DNA from: Alphaproteobacteria bacterium | GTDB lineage: Bacteria > Pseudomonadota > Alphaproteobacteria > UBA7985 > JAUIBT01 | NCBI GenBank assembly: GCA_030428565.1 | Contig: JAUIDR010000011.1 | Location: forward strand, 1 to 64,000 | Length of the DNA stretch: 64,000 nt | Direction: 5' to 3' | Shown: positions 12,663-25,282 of the stretch, piece by piece | Layout: each line of letters begins with the position of its first letter | Numbering within the stretch: position 1 is the first letter of the stretch | Notes under the pieces: model-generated | What the model saw: only the letters and a program-made list of their open reading frames with translations | Databases searched by the model: none | What the model was told of the DNA's origin: nothing | Position numbers and translations under genes: made by a program

Positions 12663-12683
12663 TGCAAGCGCTTGCATTTGACA
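12663..12683 (+). promoter_or_regulatory. LacI-type palindrome next to a possible -35 box upstream of tauA
   Basis: TGCAAGCGCTTGCA at 12663-12676 is a perfect 14-bp palindrome. It fits the TGnAAnCGnTTnCA pattern typical of LacI/GalR-family operators (family knowledge). One base later TTGACA (12678-12683) matches a -35 hexamer; no convincing -10 was found at the standard spacing. It lies about 185 bp before the tauA start. The regulator is not in the window. Confidence 0.55.
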
Positions 12684-12860
12684 GCCCTTCCCGCCCGTTC
12701 AATCGTGCATATCCGCTCACATTTCAGGTGCTCATTCCTTCCTTTCTGCGTAAATCTGAAAACGCCCCTAGCCACAGCCAAAAAAAGCGTGCTAGCGTGC
12801 TCTCGCCTAGTTGACCCCGCAAGAAAGGGGCGTAGAGGCAGTAATCAGGGAGTAGATATT

Positions 12861-13826
12861 ATGAAATTTAAGACAATCTTGGCAGCGGCCGCCAGCGTGG
12901 CTGTTTTGGGTTCAGCGGCAGCCAGCTATGCAGCCGACCAAGTCAATGCCGCTTTCTTTTTGGAATGGGCGACCCCGAACCAGATTGCTAAGGTCGATAA
13001 GGCTTACGACGATGCCCTGGGCGTTGACGTAAACTGGACCAACTTTTCAACCGGTGTTGCGATGACCGAAGCCATGTTGGCGGGCGACATCGACATTTCT
13101 TATTCGCAAGGCCTGGCGCCTTTCGTGACCGCCATTCAGCAAGGCGCGCCCTTGAAGATGGTCGGCATTGCGGTTGTCTATGAAGCCAACGACTGTTTCG
13201 TTTCCAATGATCTGGGCATTGACTCATCCAACGCCTCAGAGCTGGAAGGCAAGACCGTTGCGGTTCCCTTGAACACCATGGCGGATTTCTCGTTCCGCAA
13301 GCAAATGGCCGCTCTGGATGTCGACATCGACACCATGACCATCGTTGACCAAGCACCGGCCGACGGCGCGGTATCTTTGGCTGACGGTTCGGTCGCAATG
13401 GCTTGTATCTTTGGCGGCGCCTCTGCGAAAGCGGCGGGCGAAGTCGGAAGCCCGATCATGAGCACACAGGAAAAGAAAGACGCGGGCATCGGTTCGTTCG
13501 ACGTGGTGTCGGTGACCGAAAAGTTCGCGACAGAAAATCCTGAGCTGGTCCGTAGCTTCATGGAAGTGACCGCTGAAGCCAACGCCGCTTGGACAGCCAG
13601 CGCTGAGCAAATCGCAAAAGTAGCGGCTGACGCCGGTATGGATGTTGAGACCACCAAGAGCCAAATGGCTGGCTTCACCTTCCCGTCGCCTGCAGAGCAA
13701 ATCGCGGATTATTTCGGTGCTAACGGCATCGCAGCGGCGGCAGCGGCTTCTCTTGGCCTGGTCTTCTCGGGCGACTCAGATGGTGCGGCCATTGCCAAGA
13801 CCATCGACGGATCCTTCCTGGAGTAA
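12861..13826 (+). CDS. tauA: Taurine ABC transporter, substrate-binding protein
   Basis: Periplasmic binding protein of the NMT1/TauA group, 321 residues. Residues 1-24 are a signal peptide (MKFKTILAAAASVAVLG, cleavage near SYAAD). The fold-specific stretch MLAGDIDISYSQGLAPFVTA and the GKTVAVPLNT block match nitrate/sulfonate/taurine binders. An AGGGAG ribosome binding site sits before the ATG at 12861, so a longer frame from 12672 is rejected. The taurine call depends on tpa and xsc downstream; the protein alone would only indicate a sulfonate/nitrate-type ligand. Confidence 0.9.
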   Translation: MKFKTILAAAASVAVLGSAAASYAADQVNAAFFLEWATPNQIAKVDKAYDDALGVDVNWTNFSTGVAMTEAMLAGDIDISYSQGLAPFVTAIQQGAPLKMVGIAVVYEANDCFVSNDLGIDSSNASELEGKTVAVPLNTMADFSFRKQMAALDVDIDTMTIVDQAPADGAVSLADGSVAMACIFGGASAKAAGEVGSPIMSTQEKKDAGIGSFDVVSVTEKFATENPELVRSFMEVTAEANAAWTASAEQIAKVAADAGMDVETTKSQMAGFTFPSPAEQIADYFGANGIAAAAAASLGLVFSGDSDGAAIAKTIDGSFLE

Positions 13827-14378
13827 GCCCAGCGCGTTGCTGACAAACAGCGGTTGGCGTGTGTCGGCCGCCGGGGTGTCGGTGTGATCCTGACTTCTGG
13901 GGTCGCGCCAAGACGTAAGACAGCAACAGCAATATGCAAGGCGGATCAGGGGCAGCGCTAGCGTGTGCCCCTGATTGCCCCTTGGTCGTCAGCATTGGCC
14001 AACGCAGATGCAGGCCTGAGCTCCGTCCCTTTGGTAGCAGGTTTGGCCAGCGCGTCGTTCGCTGTTGGTTGCGCCTGTTTGAGCCGCTTAGCGTGGCATT
14101 GGCGCTTGGCGAAAACGCCCTCTGGTGCTGGTGATTGCTGGAACTGCTATCGTTTCCTATCCTTGGTACACGCCATCTCGCCAGCCCCCGCCTCGCCAGC
14201 CCAGCCTCGCCAGACCAGTCTCGCTAGGCGCCGCCTGGCTGACCTCCGCTAGGCTGCCCCCGCTTGGCTAAACTTGGTCATGCTAGCCCTGTCGCGGCCC
14301 GATCCTTGCGGCACAGATTGCCGACTGGACCGCCACAGGTTTTCGCCCTTTCCATTTGCCCAAACTTAGAGTGCTGCT
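13827..14378. other. Gene-free 552-bp gap between tauA and tauB
   Basis: No credible gene was found. Several frames stay open only because of GC-rich repeats. The gap holds the 14-15 bp repeat at 14177-14233 and runs of related CTGGC/GCTAGG motifs up to about 14275. A gap of this size inside a transporter operon is unusual; a processing site or second promoter is possible but not shown. Confidence 0.6.
14177..14233. repeat. 14-15 bp tandem repeat between tauA and tauB
   Basis: Units beginning CTCGCCAG or CTCGCTAG start at 14177, 14192, 14206 and 14220. The copies are imperfect and decay into similar sequence further on. Non-coding. Confidence 0.7.
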
Positions 14379-15176
14379 ATGGCCGATCTTGTCGCGACCG
14401 ACCTCTGCATGACCTTCACCAACCCCCAAACTGGGGCCAAGGTAGAAGCTCTCAAGGACGTAAATTTTCGTCTCAAAGAAGGAGAAATCCTCTCCGTACT
14501 AGGCCCTTCGGGCTGCGGAAAAACCACCCTTCTCAATATCGTAGCAGGCTTCATTAACCCCTCCAGCGGCACCGTCGCGCTGGACGATGAAATCATCAAG
14601 GGACCCGGCGCTGACCGCGGTATGGTCTTTCAACAAGGCGCCTTGTTCGAATGGCTGCCGGTTGAAAAGAACGTCGATTTCGGCCTGCGTATGAAGAAGA
14701 CCGGCAAGGCCGAGGCTGCCGCTAAGGTCGATCACTGGCTGGATACCGTGGGTCTGCAGGGCTTTGGCAAAACGCCGACGTATCAGCTGTCTGGCGGCAT
14801 GCAACAGCGCGTCGCCTTGGCGCGGTGCCTGGTCAATGATCCCGAAGTCATCCTGATGGACGAGCCGTTGGGCGCGCTGGATGCGCTGACGCGCGAAAAG
14901 ATGCAATCGCTGGTGCTGGAGCTTTGGAAAGAGACCGGCAAGACCATCATGATTATCACCCACTCGGTCGAAGAAGCCCTGTTGTTGGGCGAGCGCCTAT
15001 TCGTCATGGCTCCCCGGCCGGGACGCCTGCACAAGGAATACCGCCTGCCTTTCGCCGAGCGCGGGCTGAACGAGTCCTTGCGCGAAATTAAGAAAGATCC
15101 CGAATTCTCGCGGGTCCGCGAAGAAATTCTCACCATGATTTGGGACATGGAAGAGGAGATTATGGGTCGTGTTTGA
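14379..15176 (+). CDS. tauB: Taurine ABC transporter, ATP-binding protein
   Basis: Cytoplasmic ATPase of the importer, 265 residues. Walker A is GPSGCGKTTLLN, the ABC signature is YQLSGGMQQRVALARCL, Walker B is VILMDEPLGALD, and the switch His is in IITHSVEEALLL. This pattern is that of the nitrate/sulfonate/taurine family. The stop overlaps the GTG start of tauC by 8 bp. The ribosome binding site is weak. Confidence 0.92.
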   Translation: MADLVATDLCMTFTNPQTGAKVEALKDVNFRLKEGEILSVLGPSGCGKTTLLNIVAGFINPSSGTVALDDEIIKGPGADRGMVFQQGALFEWLPVEKNVDFGLRMKKTGKAEAAAKVDHWLDTVGLQGFGKTPTYQLSGGMQQRVALARCLVNDPEVILMDEPLGALDALTREKMQSLVLELWKETGKTIMIITHSVEEALLLGERLFVMAPRPGRLHKEYRLPFAERGLNESLREIKKDPEFSRVREEILTMIWDMEEEIMGRV

Positions 15177-17088
15177 TTGGCTATCTGATAACCGCGCACT
15201 GATCGCGGCGGTTTTGATTTTGCTGGCCTTGGTCAGCTTCGTTGCCACCATCGTCATTGGCCGTAAGCAATCGGCGATCCGCGAAAAAGACGAAGTATTC
15301 GGCGACCCTGAGCGCAATAAGCGCGGCTGGTACTGGGCGGTATGTGGCGTCTCTGCTCTGTTTTTGATTTGGTTCTACTATTCATGGGGCACCGCGCGCG
15401 CCTTCTTCCCAAAGGCCGCCAACGAGCTGTGCCAGGTTGCCAAACTCGACGAGGCTTTGTCGCCGATCAACGCGGCGCTTCCTGCGACCTCGCGTTATTA
15501 CAAATCGACGACCTTGGTCGCTCGCAATCGCGAGCAGCTCGAGGCCTTGGCTATCCCGGCGGGCATCTTTACAGCCGCCGAGCAGGCTCAGAGCCAGGCA
15601 CTGTACGCCAAGGTCTCCTCCTTGCTCGCGCTGCAATCAGATCCGAGCCATCTCGGCCAGGACGCGCGCAATGAACTGGAGGCACTAGCAACGGGATTAA
15701 GCGGCCTGGCAAGCGACTTGGAAGCACGTGCCAAGGCGGGCAACGACGCGCCCAGCGCCGAAGCGCTGGCGCAGCCAAGCTGGGGTACGACCCACGTTGA
15801 AATCCCTCTGCTGCCCGAAACCGCACGCGGAGTAGCCTTCGACGCCATCGCCATGCAGGCGAGCGGTCTAGCCAAATCCTTTACACGGATCCGCAACCAT
15901 CCGCCCGAGGCAGAAGCCTTGATCACGGAGATTCGCGGCGAAATCGACGCGCTGCAAGAGGCCCAAGCCAGCGATCCGGCCATGCAAGAAGCGCGCGATG
16001 ACTTCTTAAAGGCCTTCGAACGCATCTTCCGGCGTTTGGACGATGGCACGATTTTCCCGGCCGCCGCCTTGAACGGCGTTGAGGCCGCAATCGATAATTT
16101 GGATAAGGCCAGCATGGTCGCGCAAGGCGGCTTGTCCTGGGTGGCCTTCGCCTTCTTCCCGGGCGGAGAAATCGTCAAATCACGCACCCAATGCACCGAA
16201 CAAGGCACGGGCCGCTGGCTGCCAAAACCGACCGACGTCGTGGCGCAATTGGGCCAGCTTGCTAATCCCAATTTGGAAGACGGCGGCGGCTTTAAAGGCA
16301 CCACGTTGTTGTGGTGGAAGTGGCTGCCGATCGCCGACATCGTCGCTTTCTTCGTGCCCGATTGGATCGCCGACGTGATGCCCGGCGACTACGCACGCAA
16401 TAACGAGCTGGGCGAGGTCAATCCCAACTTCAAAGACCACGTCCTGGCCTTTGCGCAAGGCGACATCTACATGGGCGCGATCCCCATGTTGGATGGTCAC
16501 ATTTGGGATTCGCTGTTCCGCGTCATCGTTGCCCTGGTCTTGGGGGTCGTACTGGGCGTGCCCCTGGGGATTATGATGGGCGTCTCGCGCTTCTTTAAAT
16601 CCTTCTTTGATCCCCTCATTGAGCTGTACCGCCCCGTCCCGCCGCTGGCTTGGGCACCGCTGATCTTGACCATCTTTGGCATTCAAGACGACGGCAAGAT
16701 CTTCCTGCTGTTCATGGTGGCGTTTGCCATCATGGTGATTTCAGCGCGCACCGGCGCCTCGGGAACGCAGCTTTCAAAGATCCGCGCTTCCCACTCATTG
16801 GGCGCGTCGGTCGGCCAAATCTTGCGACACGTCATTCTGCCCAACGCCATGCCCGAAATTCTGACCGGTATCCGCATTGCCATCGGTGTGTGCTGGGGCA
16901 CCTTGGTCGCCGCTGAAATGCTGGCGGGCACCACAGGCGTTGGCTTTATCGAGAACGTGGCGCGCACTGTCTCGGACTACGAGCTGATCTGGGTGACCAT
17001 CCTCATCATGGGTGTGCTGGGCTTGGTGTTCGATATGTGCATGCGCTGGGTGATCCACAAAACAATCCCCTGGCGCGGCAAGGGCTAA
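15169..17088 (+). CDS. tauC: Taurine ABC transporter, permease with very long N-terminal extension
   Basis: The last 200 residues (about 445-639) are a normal binding-protein-dependent permease with several membrane segments and the EAA loop (LRHVILPNAMPEILTGIRIA). Ordinary TauC proteins are about 250-290 residues; this one has 639. The extension contains two membrane segments (about 9-31 and 54-73). A region of roughly 300 residues follows, probably outside the cytoplasm, rich in Ala, Glu and Leu and likely helical (about 85-320). A Trp-rich stretch near 380-400 (LWWKWLPIADIVAFFVPDW) leads into the permease. Translation starts at GTG, overlapping tauB. The extension is read in one continuous frame with no sign of a frameshift. 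Confidence 0.88.
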   Translation: MFDWLSDNRALIAAVLILLALVSFVATIVIGRKQSAIREKDEVFGDPERNKRGWYWAVCGVSALFLIWFYYSWGTARAFFPKAANELCQVAKLDEALSPINAALPATSRYYKSTTLVARNREQLEALAIPAGIFTAAEQAQSQALYAKVSSLLALQSDPSHLGQDARNELEALATGLSGLASDLEARAKAGNDAPSAEALAQPSWGTTHVEIPLLPETARGVAFDAIAMQASGLAKSFTRIRNHPPEAEALITEIRGEIDALQEAQASDPAMQEARDDFLKAFERIFRRLDDGTIFPAAALNGVEAAIDNLDKASMVAQGGLSWVAFAFFPGGEIVKSRTQCTEQGTGRWLPKPTDVVAQLGQLANPNLEDGGGFKGTTLLWWKWLPIADIVAFFVPDWIADVMPGDYARNNELGEVNPNFKDHVLAFAQGDIYMGAIPMLDGHIWDSLFRVIVALVLGVVLGVPLGIMMGVSRFFKSFFDPLIELYRPVPPLAWAPLILTIFGIQDDGKIFLLFMVAFAIMVISARTGASGTQLSKIRASHSLGASVGQILRHVILPNAMPEILTGIRIAIGVCWGTLVAAEMLAGTTGVGFIENVARTVSDYELIWVTILIMGVLGLVFDMCMRWVIHKTIPWRGKG

Positions 17089-17391: not shown

Positions 17392-18777
17392 ATGGATTCA
17401 GCCTATTCTGACAACATTCTTCGCGACGTGGTCGAAAGCGACCGCGCCCGTGTCTGGCACCATCTGACCCAGCACAAAAAGTTTGAAACGATCGACCCCC
17501 TGGTCATCGTCAAGGGCGAAGGCATGCACGTTTGGAATGCTGCGGGCCGTAAACACCTGGACGCCACTTCGGGCGGTGTCTGGACTGTCAATGTTGGCTA
17601 TGGTCGCCAAGAGATCGCCGACGCCGTTCGCGATCAGTTGGTTGAGCTACCGTATTTTGCTGGATCAGCGGGCAGCGTACCCGGCGCTCGGTTTGCCGAA
17701 AAGCTGGTCAGCAAGATGCCCGGCATGAGCCGCGTCTACTATTCAAATTCAGGTTCTGAAGCCAACGAGAAGACCTATAAGATTGTTCGCCAAATTTCGC
17801 ACAACAAATACGGCGGCAAGAAAAACAAGATCCTCTACCGTGAGCGCGACTATCACGGCACCACCATCACCGCCCTGTCGTCCGGCGGCCAGAACGAGCG
17901 CAAGGACCAGTATGGCCCCTTCACGCCCGGTTTCGTCGAGGTGCCGCACTGTCTTGAATACCGCAACCAGTTCGGTGACGAGCAGGATTACGGCGTCGCA
18001 GCCGCCAACGCGATTGAAGAGGTGATCTTGCGCGAAGGCGCGGATACCGTCGGCGCGCTGATCTTGGAACCCGTTACTGCCGGCGGCGGCGTCATCGTCC
18101 CGCCCAAAGGCTATTGGGAGCGCGTGCAAGAAATCTGTAAGCAGTATCAAGTCCTTCTGATCATCGACGAGGTGGTTTGCGGCGTTGGGCGTACCGGCAA
18201 GTGGTTCGGCTACCAACAGTTCGGCATCCAGCCCGACATGGTGACCATGGCAAAGGGCGTGGCCTCGGGCTATGCAGCCATTTCTTGCACCGTGACCACC
18301 GAAGAAGTCTTCAACTTGTTCAAGGACGATGCAGACGATCCCATGTCCTTCTTCCGCGATATCTCGACCTTTGGCGGCTGTACCGCTGGCCCCGCAGCGG
18401 CGCTGAAAACCATGGAGATCATCGAAGAAGAAAACCTGTTGGAGAACGTCACCAACATGGGCGAATACTTCTTGGAAGGCCTGGAGCGCCTGGCCGCGAA
18501 GTACAGCGTCATTGGCGACGTGCGCGGCAAGGGCCTGTTCTGTGGCGCGGAGCTGGTCGCCGACCGCGACAGCAAGCAGCCCCTGGAAGAAAAGCTGGTC
18601 CAAGCGATCGTCGCGGACTGCGTTCAGAATTCCGCAGTGCTGATCGGGGCGACAAACCGCTCACTAACGGGCTTTAACAATACCCTGTGCTTCAGCCCGG
18701 CCTTTATCGCCGGACAGAGCGAACTAGACGAAGTGCTAACGGCGGTCGATGGCGCGCTTGCTCGCGTATTGGCCTAG
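17392..18777 (+). CDS. tpa: Taurine--pyruvate aminotransferase
   Basis: PLP enzyme (class III aminotransferase) moving the amino group of taurine to pyruvate, giving sulfoacetaldehyde and alanine. The 461 residues show YYSNSGSEANEKTYK (PLP phosphate region), RERDYHGTTI, LLIIDEVVCGVGRTG with the PLP-binding Asp, and the Schiff-base Lys in VTMAKGVASGY. The start ATG follows a GGAGAG ribosome binding site. Placement right before xsc makes taurine rather than another omega-amine the likely substrate. Confidence 0.92.
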   Translation: MDSAYSDNILRDVVESDRARVWHHLTQHKKFETIDPLVIVKGEGMHVWNAAGRKHLDATSGGVWTVNVGYGRQEIADAVRDQLVELPYFAGSAGSVPGARFAEKLVSKMPGMSRVYYSNSGSEANEKTYKIVRQISHNKYGGKKNKILYRERDYHGTTITALSSGGQNERKDQYGPFTPGFVEVPHCLEYRNQFGDEQDYGVAAANAIEEVILREGADTVGALILEPVTAGGGVIVPPKGYWERVQEICKQYQVLLIIDEVVCGVGRTGKWFGYQQFGIQPDMVTMAKGVASGYAAISCTVTTEEVFNLFKDDADDPMSFFRDISTFGGCTAGPAAALKTMEIIEEENLLENVTNMGEYFLEGLERLAAKYSVIGDVRGKGLFCGAELVADRDSKQPLEEKLVQAIVADCVQNSAVLIGATNRSLTGFNNTLCFSPAFIAGQSELDEVLTAVDGALARVLA

Positions 18778-18809: not shown

Positions 18810-20597
18810 ATGAAAATGACCACAGAAGAGGCTTTTGTTAAGGTCTTGCAGATGCACGGCATCCGCCACGCTTTCGGTATTATCGGTTCGGCCATGATGC
18901 CGATTTCCGACCTGTTCCCCAAAGCTGGCATCACCTTTTGGGACTGCGCCCACGAGTGCAATGGCGGCATGATGGCCGACGGCTACAGCCGCGCGTCGGG
19001 CAAAATGTCGATGGCTATCGCCCAGAACGGCCCCGGCATTACCAACTTCGTGACGCCGATCAAGACCGCCTATTGGAACCACACACCCTTGCTGCTGGTC
19101 ACGCCACAGGCGGCCAACAAGACCATCGGTCAAGGCGGCTTCCAAGAAATCGAGCAGATGGCTCTTTTCAAGGACATGGTCTGCTACCAAGAAGAAGTGC
19201 GTGACCCGACGCGAGTTGGCGAAGTCCTGAACCGTGTGATCGAAAAGGCCTGGCGCGGCTGCGCGCCTGCGCAAATCAACATCCCGCGCGATATGTGGAC
19301 CCAGGTGATTGACGTTGACCTGCCGCAGATCGTGCGTCTTGAGCGCCCTTCGGGCGGCAAACGCGCCATCACTGAGGCTGCCAAGCTGCTGTCGGACGCT
19401 AAGTTCCCGGTCATTTTGAACGGTGCCGGTGTGGTGATCGGCGGCGCAATCGACGCGTCTCGCCAGTTGGCCGAGCGCCTGTCCGCGCCCGTCTGTTCCG
19501 GCTACCAACACAACGACGCCTTCCCAGGCTCGCACCCGCTGGGCATGGGCCCCTTGGGCTACAACGGCAGCCGCGCGGCGATGGAGATGATCTCTAAGGC
19601 TGATGTGGTCCTGGCCCTGGGCACGCGCCTAAACCCCTTCTCGACCCTGCCGGGCTACGGTATCGATTATTGGCCCAAGGATGCCAAGATCATCCAGGTC
19701 GACATTAACTCTGACCGCATTGGCCTGACCAAGAAAGTTAGCGTGGGTATCCAGGGCGATGCCAAGCAGGTCGGCGAGCAGATTTTGGCCCAGCTCAGCG
19801 CAAGTGCCGGCGATGCCGGCCGCAAAGAGCGTGAAGCCGCGGTTGCGCAAGCCAAGTCGGCTTGGTTGCAGGCCCTGTCATCTATGGACCACGAGGACGA
19901 TGATCCCGGCACCAATTGGAACGAACGTGCCCGCGCCGACAAGCCCAAGCACATGTCACCGCGCATGGCATGGCGTGCGATCCAGTCGGCTCTGCCCAAA
20001 GAGGCGATTATCTCTTCGGACATCGGCAACAACTGCGCAATCGGAAACGCCTACCCAAGCTTTGAAGAAGGCCGCAAATACCTGGCCCCTGGCCTGTTCG
20101 GTCCTTGCGGCTATGGCCTGCCCGCCATCATCGGGGCCAAGATCGGCCGCCCGGATGTGCCCGTGGTCGGCTTTGCTGGTGATGGCGCCTTCGGCATCTC
20201 CATGAACGAAATGACGGCTGTTGGCCGCGAAGAGTGGCCCGCCATCACGCAGGTCATCTTCCGCAACTATCAGTGGGGTGCCGAAAAGCGCAACTCGACC
20301 CTGTGGTTTGACGACAACTTCGTTGGTACCGAGCTGGACGAGAACGTTTCTTATGCCAAGATCGCACAGGGCTGCGGCGTCAAAGGCGTGCAGGTCATGA
20401 ACATGGAAGAGCTGACCGCTGCCCTACGCACCGCCATCGACGAGCAAATGAACCAGGGCGTCACCACCTTCATCGAGGTTCTGTTGAACCAAGAGTTGGG
20501 TGAGCCCTTCCGTCGCGATGCGATGAAAAAGCCGGTCGAGGTCGCGGGCATCAGCGCCGACGACATGCAAGACCAGGTCAACGCCTTCGTAGAGTAG
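18810..20597 (+). CDS. xsc: Sulfoacetaldehyde acetyltransferase
   Basis: Thiamine-diphosphate enzyme that splits sulfoacetaldehyde with phosphate into acetyl phosphate and sulfite. The 595 residues have the three-domain layout of the acetolactate-synthase family. The N-terminal ThDP domain has the conserved Glu in WDCAHECNGGMM, and AIAQNGPGITNFVTPI follows. The C-terminal ThDP-Mg domain has GFAGDGAFGISMNE. A purine-rich AAAAAAAGGAAA site precedes the ATG. A terminator lies about 75 bp after the stop. The usual partner pta (phosphotransacetylase) is not adjacent. Confidence 0.95.
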   Translation: MKMTTEEAFVKVLQMHGIRHAFGIIGSAMMPISDLFPKAGITFWDCAHECNGGMMADGYSRASGKMSMAIAQNGPGITNFVTPIKTAYWNHTPLLLVTPQAANKTIGQGGFQEIEQMALFKDMVCYQEEVRDPTRVGEVLNRVIEKAWRGCAPAQINIPRDMWTQVIDVDLPQIVRLERPSGGKRAITEAAKLLSDAKFPVILNGAGVVIGGAIDASRQLAERLSAPVCSGYQHNDAFPGSHPLGMGPLGYNGSRAAMEMISKADVVLALGTRLNPFSTLPGYGIDYWPKDAKIIQVDINSDRIGLTKKVSVGIQGDAKQVGEQILAQLSASAGDAGRKEREAAVAQAKSAWLQALSSMDHEDDDPGTNWNERARADKPKHMSPRMAWRAIQSALPKEAIISSDIGNNCAIGNAYPSFEEGRKYLAPGLFGPCGYGLPAIIGAKIGRPDVPVVGFAGDGAFGISMNEMTAVGREEWPAITQVIFRNYQWGAEKRNSTLWFDDNFVGTELDENVSYAKIAQGCGVKGVQVMNMEELTAALRTAIDEQMNQGVTTFIEVLLNQELGEPFRRDAMKKPVEVAGISADDMQDQVNAFVE

Positions 20598-23552: not shown

Positions 23553-23713
23553 GGGGAGGCTGTTTTTATGTCTTGCCGTTGGAGTGGAGAATAGAGAGAC
23601 GAAAATGCAGCGAAGCGCTTCAAAAAAATGCCTTCAAGGTCGCAACGAGGCGAGCCGAGCCCCCCTCGCCCCTGAAGACTGATCGCGCCACAGGCAAACA
23701 AAAGGGGGGCACC

Positions 23714-25282
23714 ATGGCCAGCGATACCAGCGAGCCAGCAACAACAACGGTCAGCCGCAGCCGGCGGCGGCGGGGGCGTAGCGATCAGACCCACAAGCCC
23801 CAGCGGGCAAGCAACTACCGCCAGATCACAAATAGTTTGGCGCTGACCGAGCCCTTCAGCGATGACCAGGTAGCCGCCATTCACCAACAGGCGCTGCGGG
23901 TGCTGCAAGAACTGGGCATTCGCGTTCTGTTGCCTGAAGGCCGCGCCTTCTTCAAAAGCGCCGGCGCCAGGGTCGATGAAGAAACGCAGATGGTCTACAT
24001 CGGCGCGGATATAGTCGAAGCTGCGCTGGCCAGCGCGCCCAAGTCCTTCACTCTGCGCGGCGCGCCCGGTGCGGATCGCGATTTGCCCTTCGGCGGGCGC
24101 TCCCTGGTCTTTGGACCCGGCGCAGGTTGCCCCAACGCCAGCGATCTGGACCGAGGCCGCCGCCCCGGTACACTGCGCGATTTTGTCGAACTGACTAAGC
24201 TAACCCAGAGTTTCGATGTCATGGGCCTCAACGTGCCCATTGTCGAGCCGCAGGACGTGCCGCTCAAAAACCGCCACTACGCTACCTTGCGTGCGCAGCT
24301 TCAGCTAAGTGACAAGCCGCCGTTTATCTTCGCGCGCGGCCGGGAACAGGTCGAACAAGGTTTCGAAGCGATCCGGCTTGCACGCGGACTAAGCCAGCAA
24401 GACTTTGAGGCTGAGGTTTGGGCAACCACGGTGATTAACTCCAATTCGCCGCGCCAACTCGACATTCCCATGACGCAGGGCATCATCGACTACGCGCGCT
24501 ACAAGCAAATCATCATCATGACGCCCTTCTGTTTATCCGGCGCCATGGCCCCCATCACCATCCCGGGCGCCTTGCTGCTGTCGCACGCCGAAGCGTTGGC
24601 CGGCATTACCCTGGCGCAAATCGTGCGAGCGGGTGCGCCGGTGGTCTATGGCGCGTTTAGCTCCAACGTTCATATGAAATCGGGTGCTCCGGTCTTTGGC
24701 ACGCCCGAACACATCAAGACCAACTTTGGGGCCGGACAACTGGCTCGCTTGGTGGGCCTGCCGTGGCGCTCGGGCGGGGGCACGGCAGCGCCTTGGCCCG
24801 ATGTGCAGGCGGACTATGAAACGCAAATGTCGGTCTGGGGGTCGGTGCTGGCGGGTGCCAACCTAATCTACCACGCTGCGGGCTGGCTGGAAGGCGGTCT
24901 GACCTTGAGCTACGAGAAGTTCATCACGGACCTGGAGTTGCTACAGACCCTGGCCGAACTGGCCAATCCCATCGCCTTTGACGAGGACGAGCTGGGCTTC
25001 GCGGCCATCGCTGGCGTACAGCCGGGCGGCCACTTCTTTTCGGCCGAGCATACCATGCAGCGCTTTGCCACCCAATTCTATGAGCCCACGGTCTCGGACT
25101 GGTCAAACTACGGGCAATGGCAGGACAAAGGTAGCATCAAGACGACCCAACGCGCGCGAAACATTTGGCAAGATCGGCTCGCCAACTTCCAAGCCCCGCG
25201 CTTGGATAATACCGCGGTCGGCCAAGCGCTTGACTATATGCAAGCTTGCGAGGATGCTGGCGGCGCCGAGGCGGTCAGCTAG
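23714..25282 (+). CDS. Trimethylamine methyltransferase (MttB) family protein, non-pyrrolysine type
   Basis: 522 residues from the ATG at 23714, which follows an AAAGGGGGG ribosome binding site; a longer frame from 23573 lacks such a signal. Family features include LRVLQELGIRVLLPEGRAFF, FGPGAGCPNASDLD, the NSNSPRQLDIPMTQGI block and NLIYHAAGWLEGGL. The frame has no internal amber codon, so it is not a pyrrolysine enzyme. Relatives of this type transfer a methyl group from glycine betaine, carnitine or similar quaternary amines to a corrinoid protein. The Arg-rich N-terminal 40 residues are not conserved. No corrinoid protein gene is nearby; an FAD oxidase follows 57 bp on. Confidence 0.88.
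   Translation: MASDTSEPATTTVSRSRRRRGRSDQTHKPQRASNYRQITNSLALTEPFSDDQVAAIHQQALRVLQELGIRVLLPEGRAFFKSAGARVDEETQMVYIGADIVEAALASAPKSFTLRGAPGADRDLPFGGRSLVFGPGAGCPNASDLDRGRRPGTLRDFVELTKLTQSFDVMGLNVPIVEPQDVPLKNRHYATLRAQLQLSDKPPFIFARGREQVEQGFEAIRLARGLSQQDFEAEVWATTVINSNSPRQLDIPMTQGIIDYARYKQIIIMTPFCLSGAMAPITIPGALLLSHAEALAGITLAQIVRAGAPVVYGAFSSNVHMKSGAPVFGTPEHIKTNFGAGQLARLVGLPWRSGGGTAAPWPDVQADYETQMSVWGSVLAGANLIYHAAGWLEGGLTLSYEKFITDLELLQTLAELANPIAFDEDELGFAAIAGVQPGGHFFSAEHTMQRFATQFYEPTVSDWSNYGQWQDKGSIKTTQRARNIWQDRLANFQAPRLDNTAVGQALDYMQACEDAGGAEAVS

Follow-up and report, generated by a model that had tools for sequence, protein, structure and literature searches.

A conserved LacI-type palindrome before tauA suggests HpsR control of taurine genes in an uncultured alphaproteobacterial genus

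Taurine is a sulfonate passed from plankton to marine bacteria. The same holds for dihydroxypropanesulfonate (DHPS), according to the abstract of PMC11131964. The usual regulator of taurine genes is TauR, a MocR/GntR-type activator in Rhodobacter capsulatus and Sinorhizobium meliloti (PMC5320631, PMC4254191). In the sections of these papers cited here, TauR targets tauABC, tpa and xsc and, in some Rhodobacterales, the soe-type genes bisC/dmsC/hybA, and its box consists of direct repeats of CTGGACYTAA.

For DHPS, a regulator of a different family has been named. The LacI gene SPO0590 beside hpsKLMNOP in Ruegeria pomeroyi is annotated as hpsR (PMC4334477), and HpsR is also named in Cupriavidus (PMC11382572), as far as the accessible sections of the two papers go. 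Titles and abstract openings listed in searches of the open-licence literature yielded no described HpsR binding site or regulon, nor any report of taurine genes under HpsR control. A third relevant system is AglR, the LacI-family alpha-glucoside regulator of Alphaproteobacteria, presented in the cited part of a LacI regulon survey as a local sugar regulator (PMC4052901). The words sulfonate and taurine are absent from the main text of that survey.

Here we analyse a stretch of 64 kb (the window) from the 3.52 Mb genome of an uncultured alphaproteobacterium (G000; 99.2% complete). It was compared with the two other genomes of its genus, G001 (99% complete) and G002 (86% complete); the same three genomes make up the whole family. 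On the forward strand, the window carries tauA, tauB, tauC, a tpa-like gene and xsc in this order, and the gene order around the operon is identical in all three genomes. TauA, TauB and TauC fall below the curated cut-offs, yet taurine models are among their best matches. The substrate-binding protein TauA (12861-13826) matches the solved taurine-binding protein 6ssy (E 2.8e-14) and reaches 91.7 of the 304 bits that TIGR01729 requires, hence it is a divergent member. The best NCBIfam match of the ATP-binding subunit TauB (14379-15176) is the taurine ATP-binding subunit, with 280.8 bits for a cut-off of 357. For the permease TauC (15169-17088), which has a long N-terminal extension, the TauC model covers residues 426-638 only and stays below its cut-off. 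All aminotransferase models remain below cut-off for the tpa-like gene (17392-18777), which is named by its place between tauC and xsc. The sulfoacetaldehyde acetyltransferase gene xsc (18810-20597) is the one above its cut-off (TIGR03457, 948 bits for 676).

Some features of the operon are observations in their own right. About 420 residues precede the permease domain of TauC, and its length is similar in G001 and G002 (638 and 639 aa). The gap between tauA and tauB (13827-14378) measures 552 bp and contains tandem repeats of 14 bp (14177-14224 and 14231-14269); it is much shorter at the loci of two other families of the order, f2 and f3. At 23573-25282 we noted an MttB-type trimethylamine methyltransferase homologue, then a DAO-family oxidoreductase gene. 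No regulator gene was seen by eye around the tau operon in the three genomes, and a Pfam scan of 10 neighbouring window proteins, one of them free of any match, found no transcription factor.

The putative operator lies upstream of this operon. The initial annotation had noted a palindrome of LacI/GalR symmetry there, and the symmetry is indeed exact: TGCAAGCGCTTGCA, at 12663-12676, is a perfect 14-bp palindrome, even in length, with a central CG, and located upstream of the start codon, as befits a LacI-type operator. It begins 198 bp before tauA (start at 12861). This is a rather long distance, because most LacI-family sites sit 140-30 bp upstream according to the cited part of the regulon survey (PMC4052901). 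The suggested scan of the genome for the same 14-mer found a single exact copy in 3.52 Mb, the one before tauA. Two further places differ by one mismatch, and one of these, TGCAAGCGCTTACA, is just upstream of a LacI gene.

Could the palindrome be a functionless chance match? By counts it might be. Allowing up to two mismatches to TGCAAGCGCTTGCA, the 64-kb window holds 1 site where chance predicts 0.99. The loose motif TGNAANCGNTTNCA occurs without mismatch 8, 12 and 5 times in G000, G001 and G002, against 7, 7 and 4 times for the reversed pattern, so that a genome-wide excess is not clearly seen in the three genomes. Hence our case rests on placement and conservation instead of counts. All three genomes have a site at the corresponding position upstream of tauA: TGCAAGCGCTTGCA in G000, TGAAAGCGTTTACA in G002 and TGAAAACGCTTTCA in G001. 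The exact 14-mer of G000 is not kept, with three letters differing in each relative. All three sites fit the strict form TGNAARCGYTTNCA and keep the outer letters TG...CA, whereas the surrounding sequence, including TTGACA, shows little conservation in the alignment. We simulated 60000 stretches of 250 bp per genome with a first-order Markov model of the tauA-upstream composition, and the strict form appeared in 7, 6 and 14 of them for G000, G002 and G001. The chance is thus about 1e-4 per 250-bp region, yet the form is found three times out of three at the same place, although the flanks have changed. A chance origin is therefore very improbable.

The initial annotation had also placed a -35 box beside the operator. 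The letters TTGACA are there (12678-12683, forward strand), but spacings of 15-19 hold no acceptable -10, and the two relatives do not keep the hexamer in the alignment of tauA upstreams. We thus reject TTGACA as the -35 of tauA; it is probably no promoter element. A promoter scan of the tauA upstream region found no sigma-70-like pair on the forward strand, and none can be placed over the operator. A better conserved element lies nearer to tauA: TGCTAGCGT, an extended -10-like block at 12790-12798 (forward strand), is aligned in all three genomes of the genus and may be the tauA promoter. In the three genomes, 127, 127 and 118 bp separate the operator start from this block.

Which protein could bind the palindrome? 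The window's genome has five LacI genes. The one-mismatch site TGCAAGCGCTTACA adjoins one of them, on contig C95 (24812-25843; L009:9813-10844), which is divergent from the genes of a TRAP transporter. The binding protein of this transporter matches the PDB entry of a DHPS TRAP transporter (24gc, E 1.3e-205). Downstream in the same operon, a HisD-like gene matches (R)-DHPS dehydrogenase (8wwe, E 3.6e-230). The operon further holds an SDR gene, a Zn-type dehydrogenase gene, a galactarate-dehydratase-like gene, which from its context would be SuyB-like, and a gene with a below-cut-off match to L-sulfolactate dehydrogenase. We call the LacI protein HpsR because of these DHPS gene neighbours and because SPO0590 beside hpsKLMNOP is annotated as hpsR. 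Its promoter carries two boxes, TGTAAGCGCTTACA and TGCAAGCGCTTACA, 22 bp apart, in all three genomes of the genus. The arrangement resembles that of HpsR in Roseobacteraceae (SPO0590; PMC4334477, in the part available): an orthologous LacI protein, divergent beside hpsK in most, with the same paired boxes.

The same box recurs before hpsR outside the genus. In the order, where the HpsR homologues are distant (41-50% identity), the exact tau 14-mer TGCAAGCGCTTGCA is found in the hpsR promoters of two genomes of another family, G010 and G007. Other hpsR promoters of the order carry TGCAAGCGCTTACA (G009), TGTAAACGCTTTCA (G003) and the 13/14 site TGTAAACGCTTTCT (G004). At the hpsR promoter of Hoeflea poritis, the tau 14-mer is one of two boxes. 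Promoters of the other four LacI groups of the genus contain no 14/14 box.

For a wider view, we took the best 80 of 528 confirmed HpsR relatives and dropped one locus (L105) that has the same coordinates as G001. The remaining 79 loci, mostly from Rhodobacterales, encode proteins 54-66% identical to HpsR. Within 300 bp upstream, 72 of these 79 hpsR promoters hold a site of at least 13/14, and seven hold none. A 14/14 site is present in 66 of the 79, two or more such sites in 45, and in the promoters with exactly two sites the spacing is nearly always 21-23 bp (54 of 56).

From 130 sites of these outside promoters we built a symmetric HpsR matrix. The two hps boxes score 26.3 and 24.9 in it. 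The tau site of G000 ranks just below them with 23.5 (rank 8), a value at which it qualifies as a box of the hpsR-promoter type; the tau sites of G002 (18.7, rank 11) and G001 (14.8, rank 14) are weaker. Eight of 232,797 positions in the genus sequences reach the score of the G000 tau site, real sites included, a figure to be taken as a rank and not as an error rate, since the stretches were partly chosen for carrying sites.

We consider it likely that the tauA palindrome is an operator for HpsR, which in this genus would have taken in tauABC-tpa-xsc, repressing the operon when unliganded and leaving it when a C3 sulfonate is present. HpsR would most likely bind the putative operator as a dimer without ligand and hold transcription down, and DHPS or a product of it would most likely be the C3 sulfonate that releases it. 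In the window's species, HpsR may also have taken in a soeABC-like sulfite dehydrogenase. The use of sulfonates and the disposal of the resulting sulfite would then be switched on together, and taurine would be coupled to DHPS.

The direction of control could differ. With one box only, and that some 127 bp away from the promoter-like block that is conserved best, HpsR might also act from well upstream of the promoter as an activator, or through looping, and not as a repressor. The distances of 127, 127 and 118 bp, and the fact that no promoter can be placed over the box, agree with such a mode. Against it, the cited part of the survey (PMC4052901) describes ligand-free binding for most LacI-family proteins, and the distance, measured to a candidate promoter, may itself be wrong. 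We regard activation or looping as rather unlikely.

Several points count against HpsR itself. Most hpsR promoters have two boxes, tauA has one. In G002 and G001, the tau boxes have scores far lower than those of the hps boxes. A matrix made from the sites of another LacI group also accommodates the tau box of G001, as well as the G000 site before the soe-like genes. This group, which we call AglR-like from the published motif (PMC4052901, in the part available) and not from a profile, provides the most plausible alternative binder, L006. If L006 or some other LacI protein bound the tauA site, taurine would be tied to a sugar signal. In all three genomes, AglR-like promoters hold TGAAAGCGCTTTGA and TCAAAGCGCTTTGG, whose core is that of the tau sites and agrees with the motif given for AglR, a LacI-type operator with core AAAGCGCTTT (PMC4052901, in the part cited). 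Among the other four LacI groups, this is the only one whose promoters keep CG-centred near-palindromes of this core in every genus genome that has the group. The G001 tau site ranks 14 in the HpsR matrix but 6 in the AglR-like one, where the soe-like site of G000 reaches rank 6 as well.

However, the AglR-like sites lack the outer letters TG...CA that all three tau sites keep; the AglR operator likewise has tc...ga in the cited part of its description (PMC4052901). The tau sites of G000 and G002 both rank 27 in the AglR-like matrix, whereas the HpsR matrix places them at ranks 8 and 11. The G000 site differs from the AglR-like site by three mismatches and from the hpsR box by one. The AglR-like matrix is also built from just six sites of three genomes. 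Taken together, control of tauA by an AglR-like or other LacI protein is improbable: the AglR-like one may have a role at the site of G001, while HpsR appears to fit the window's site better.

If HpsR controls the operon, what became of TauR? The initial annotation had seen no TauR in the window and had proposed a LacI-type regulator in its place. Our TauR query was a MocR-type protein encoded beside TRAP-xsc-pta genes on a Limimaricola plasmid, which shares 57% identity with the product of a gene some 5 kb away from xsc on pSymB of S. meliloti. With this query, the three genomes of the genus (99.2, 99 and 86% complete) gave no homologue at E <= 1e-20, while both genomes of the sister family f2 yielded one with 43% identity. 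Both proposals are supported by the comparison, the second because the site is kept in three of three genomes, differs by one letter from an hpsR box of its own genome and is identical to sites in two other hpsR promoters. This suggests that the bacterium runs taurine use from HpsR instead of TauR. Unlike TauR, the proposed regulator belongs to another protein family, and its box is unlike the TauR direct repeats (PMC5320631, PMC4254191, in the parts cited).

In f2, with TauR, the one tauA upstream available (G004) has no HpsR-type box; in the genus, there is a box and no TauR was found. In f3, no TauR homologue was found at E <= 1e-20 in six genomes, several of them incomplete (63-96%), and no HpsR-type box precedes tauA. 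Since f3 has HpsR, the loss of TauR by itself does not bring the box. Scanning the 500 bp before tauA for CTGGACYTAA at 8/10 gives no clear division between the groups: there is no match in G000 and G002, one in G001, two in f2, and 0, 0, 2 and 0 at the f3 loci.

Outside the genus, the tauA box was not found. Of eight tauA loci, one belongs to f2, four to f3 and three to a further family of the class; none has a site of at least 12/14 within 500 bases upstream of the TauA core. In a search of 385 genomes of the class, seven had a close TauA (E <= 1e-90), three of them outside the order, and the site is absent from these three loci. At the f3 loci (L036-L039), we observed by eye kept GAGAC/AAGAC ... 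CTTATCTA letters (GATAAGACAAATTCTTCTTATC in two) just before the ribosome-binding site of tauA, possibly another operator.

Within the genus, the box is found beyond the DHPS locus, before tauA and, in some species, before soe-like or sqdB genes. Strict-form sites number 4, 6 and 4 in G000, G001 and G002. All four in G000 lie at sulfonate-related genes: two at hpsR/hps, one at tauA and one upstream of an operon of a molybdopterin oxidoreductase, an Fe-S protein and DmsC. We call this operon soeABC-like because it comprises three genes, with subunits of the Fe-S and DmsC types, and because of the published bisC/dmsC/hybA link, NCBIfam giving only general molybdopterin matches for the SoeA-like protein. 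The soe-like sites of G000 and G001 score 22.4 and 14.4 in the HpsR matrix. G001 and the two f2 genomes have a soe-like site of 13/14. G002 and four f3 genomes lack it, the sequence ahead of the Fe-S motif being just 187 and 383 bases long in two of the latter; its absence there speaks against the HpsR reading.

In G001, four of the six strict sites are at hpsR (two), at tauA and at a gene for UDP-sulfoquinovose synthase. The last, TGAAAACGCTTACA at L058:4409-4422 (contig C24), lies about 200 bp before the SqdB-like gene L058:4619-5824 (PDB SQD1, E 3.7e-99). Sulfolipid synthesis uses up sulfite. In G002, three of the four are at hpsR (two) and tauA. The others also count against the HpsR reading, being away from known sulfonate genes: two of six in G001, one before the genes of a polyamine-type ABC transporter, the other near a sarcosine oxidase-like gene, and one of four in G002, inside a reading frame.

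Three side observations concern HpsR-type sites and LacI genes elsewhere. L059:5807-5820 (G001, contig C28), upstream of the polyamine-type ABC transporter operon, is a strong HpsR-type site with a matrix score of 24.9. At L163:10001-14050, in a MAG of the Rhodobacteraceae, hpsR is followed after about 210 bp by the start of a SoeA-like gene (59% identity), an independent hint of a link between HpsR and sulfite oxidation. In G001, TGCAACCGGTTGCA (C56:42075-42088) and TGCAACCGGTTTCA (C8:3518-3531) are near the LacI genes C56:41639-41776 and C8:3895-4032, and are apparently their own, different operators.

A broader reading, which we hold only tentatively, is that TauR is gone and that HpsR, at first a local DHPS switch, has become a sulfonate-wide one by regulator replacement. 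It would then govern DHPS/sulfolactate and taurine use, sulfite oxidation through the soe-like genes in at least two species, and UDP-sulfoquinovose synthase in one species. The comparison yields a precise candidate operator for HpsR and predicts joint control of taurine and DHPS genes in a lineage in which no TauR was found. If true, a replacement of the regulator would tie several marine sulfonates to one signal in an uncultured alphaproteobacterial genus.
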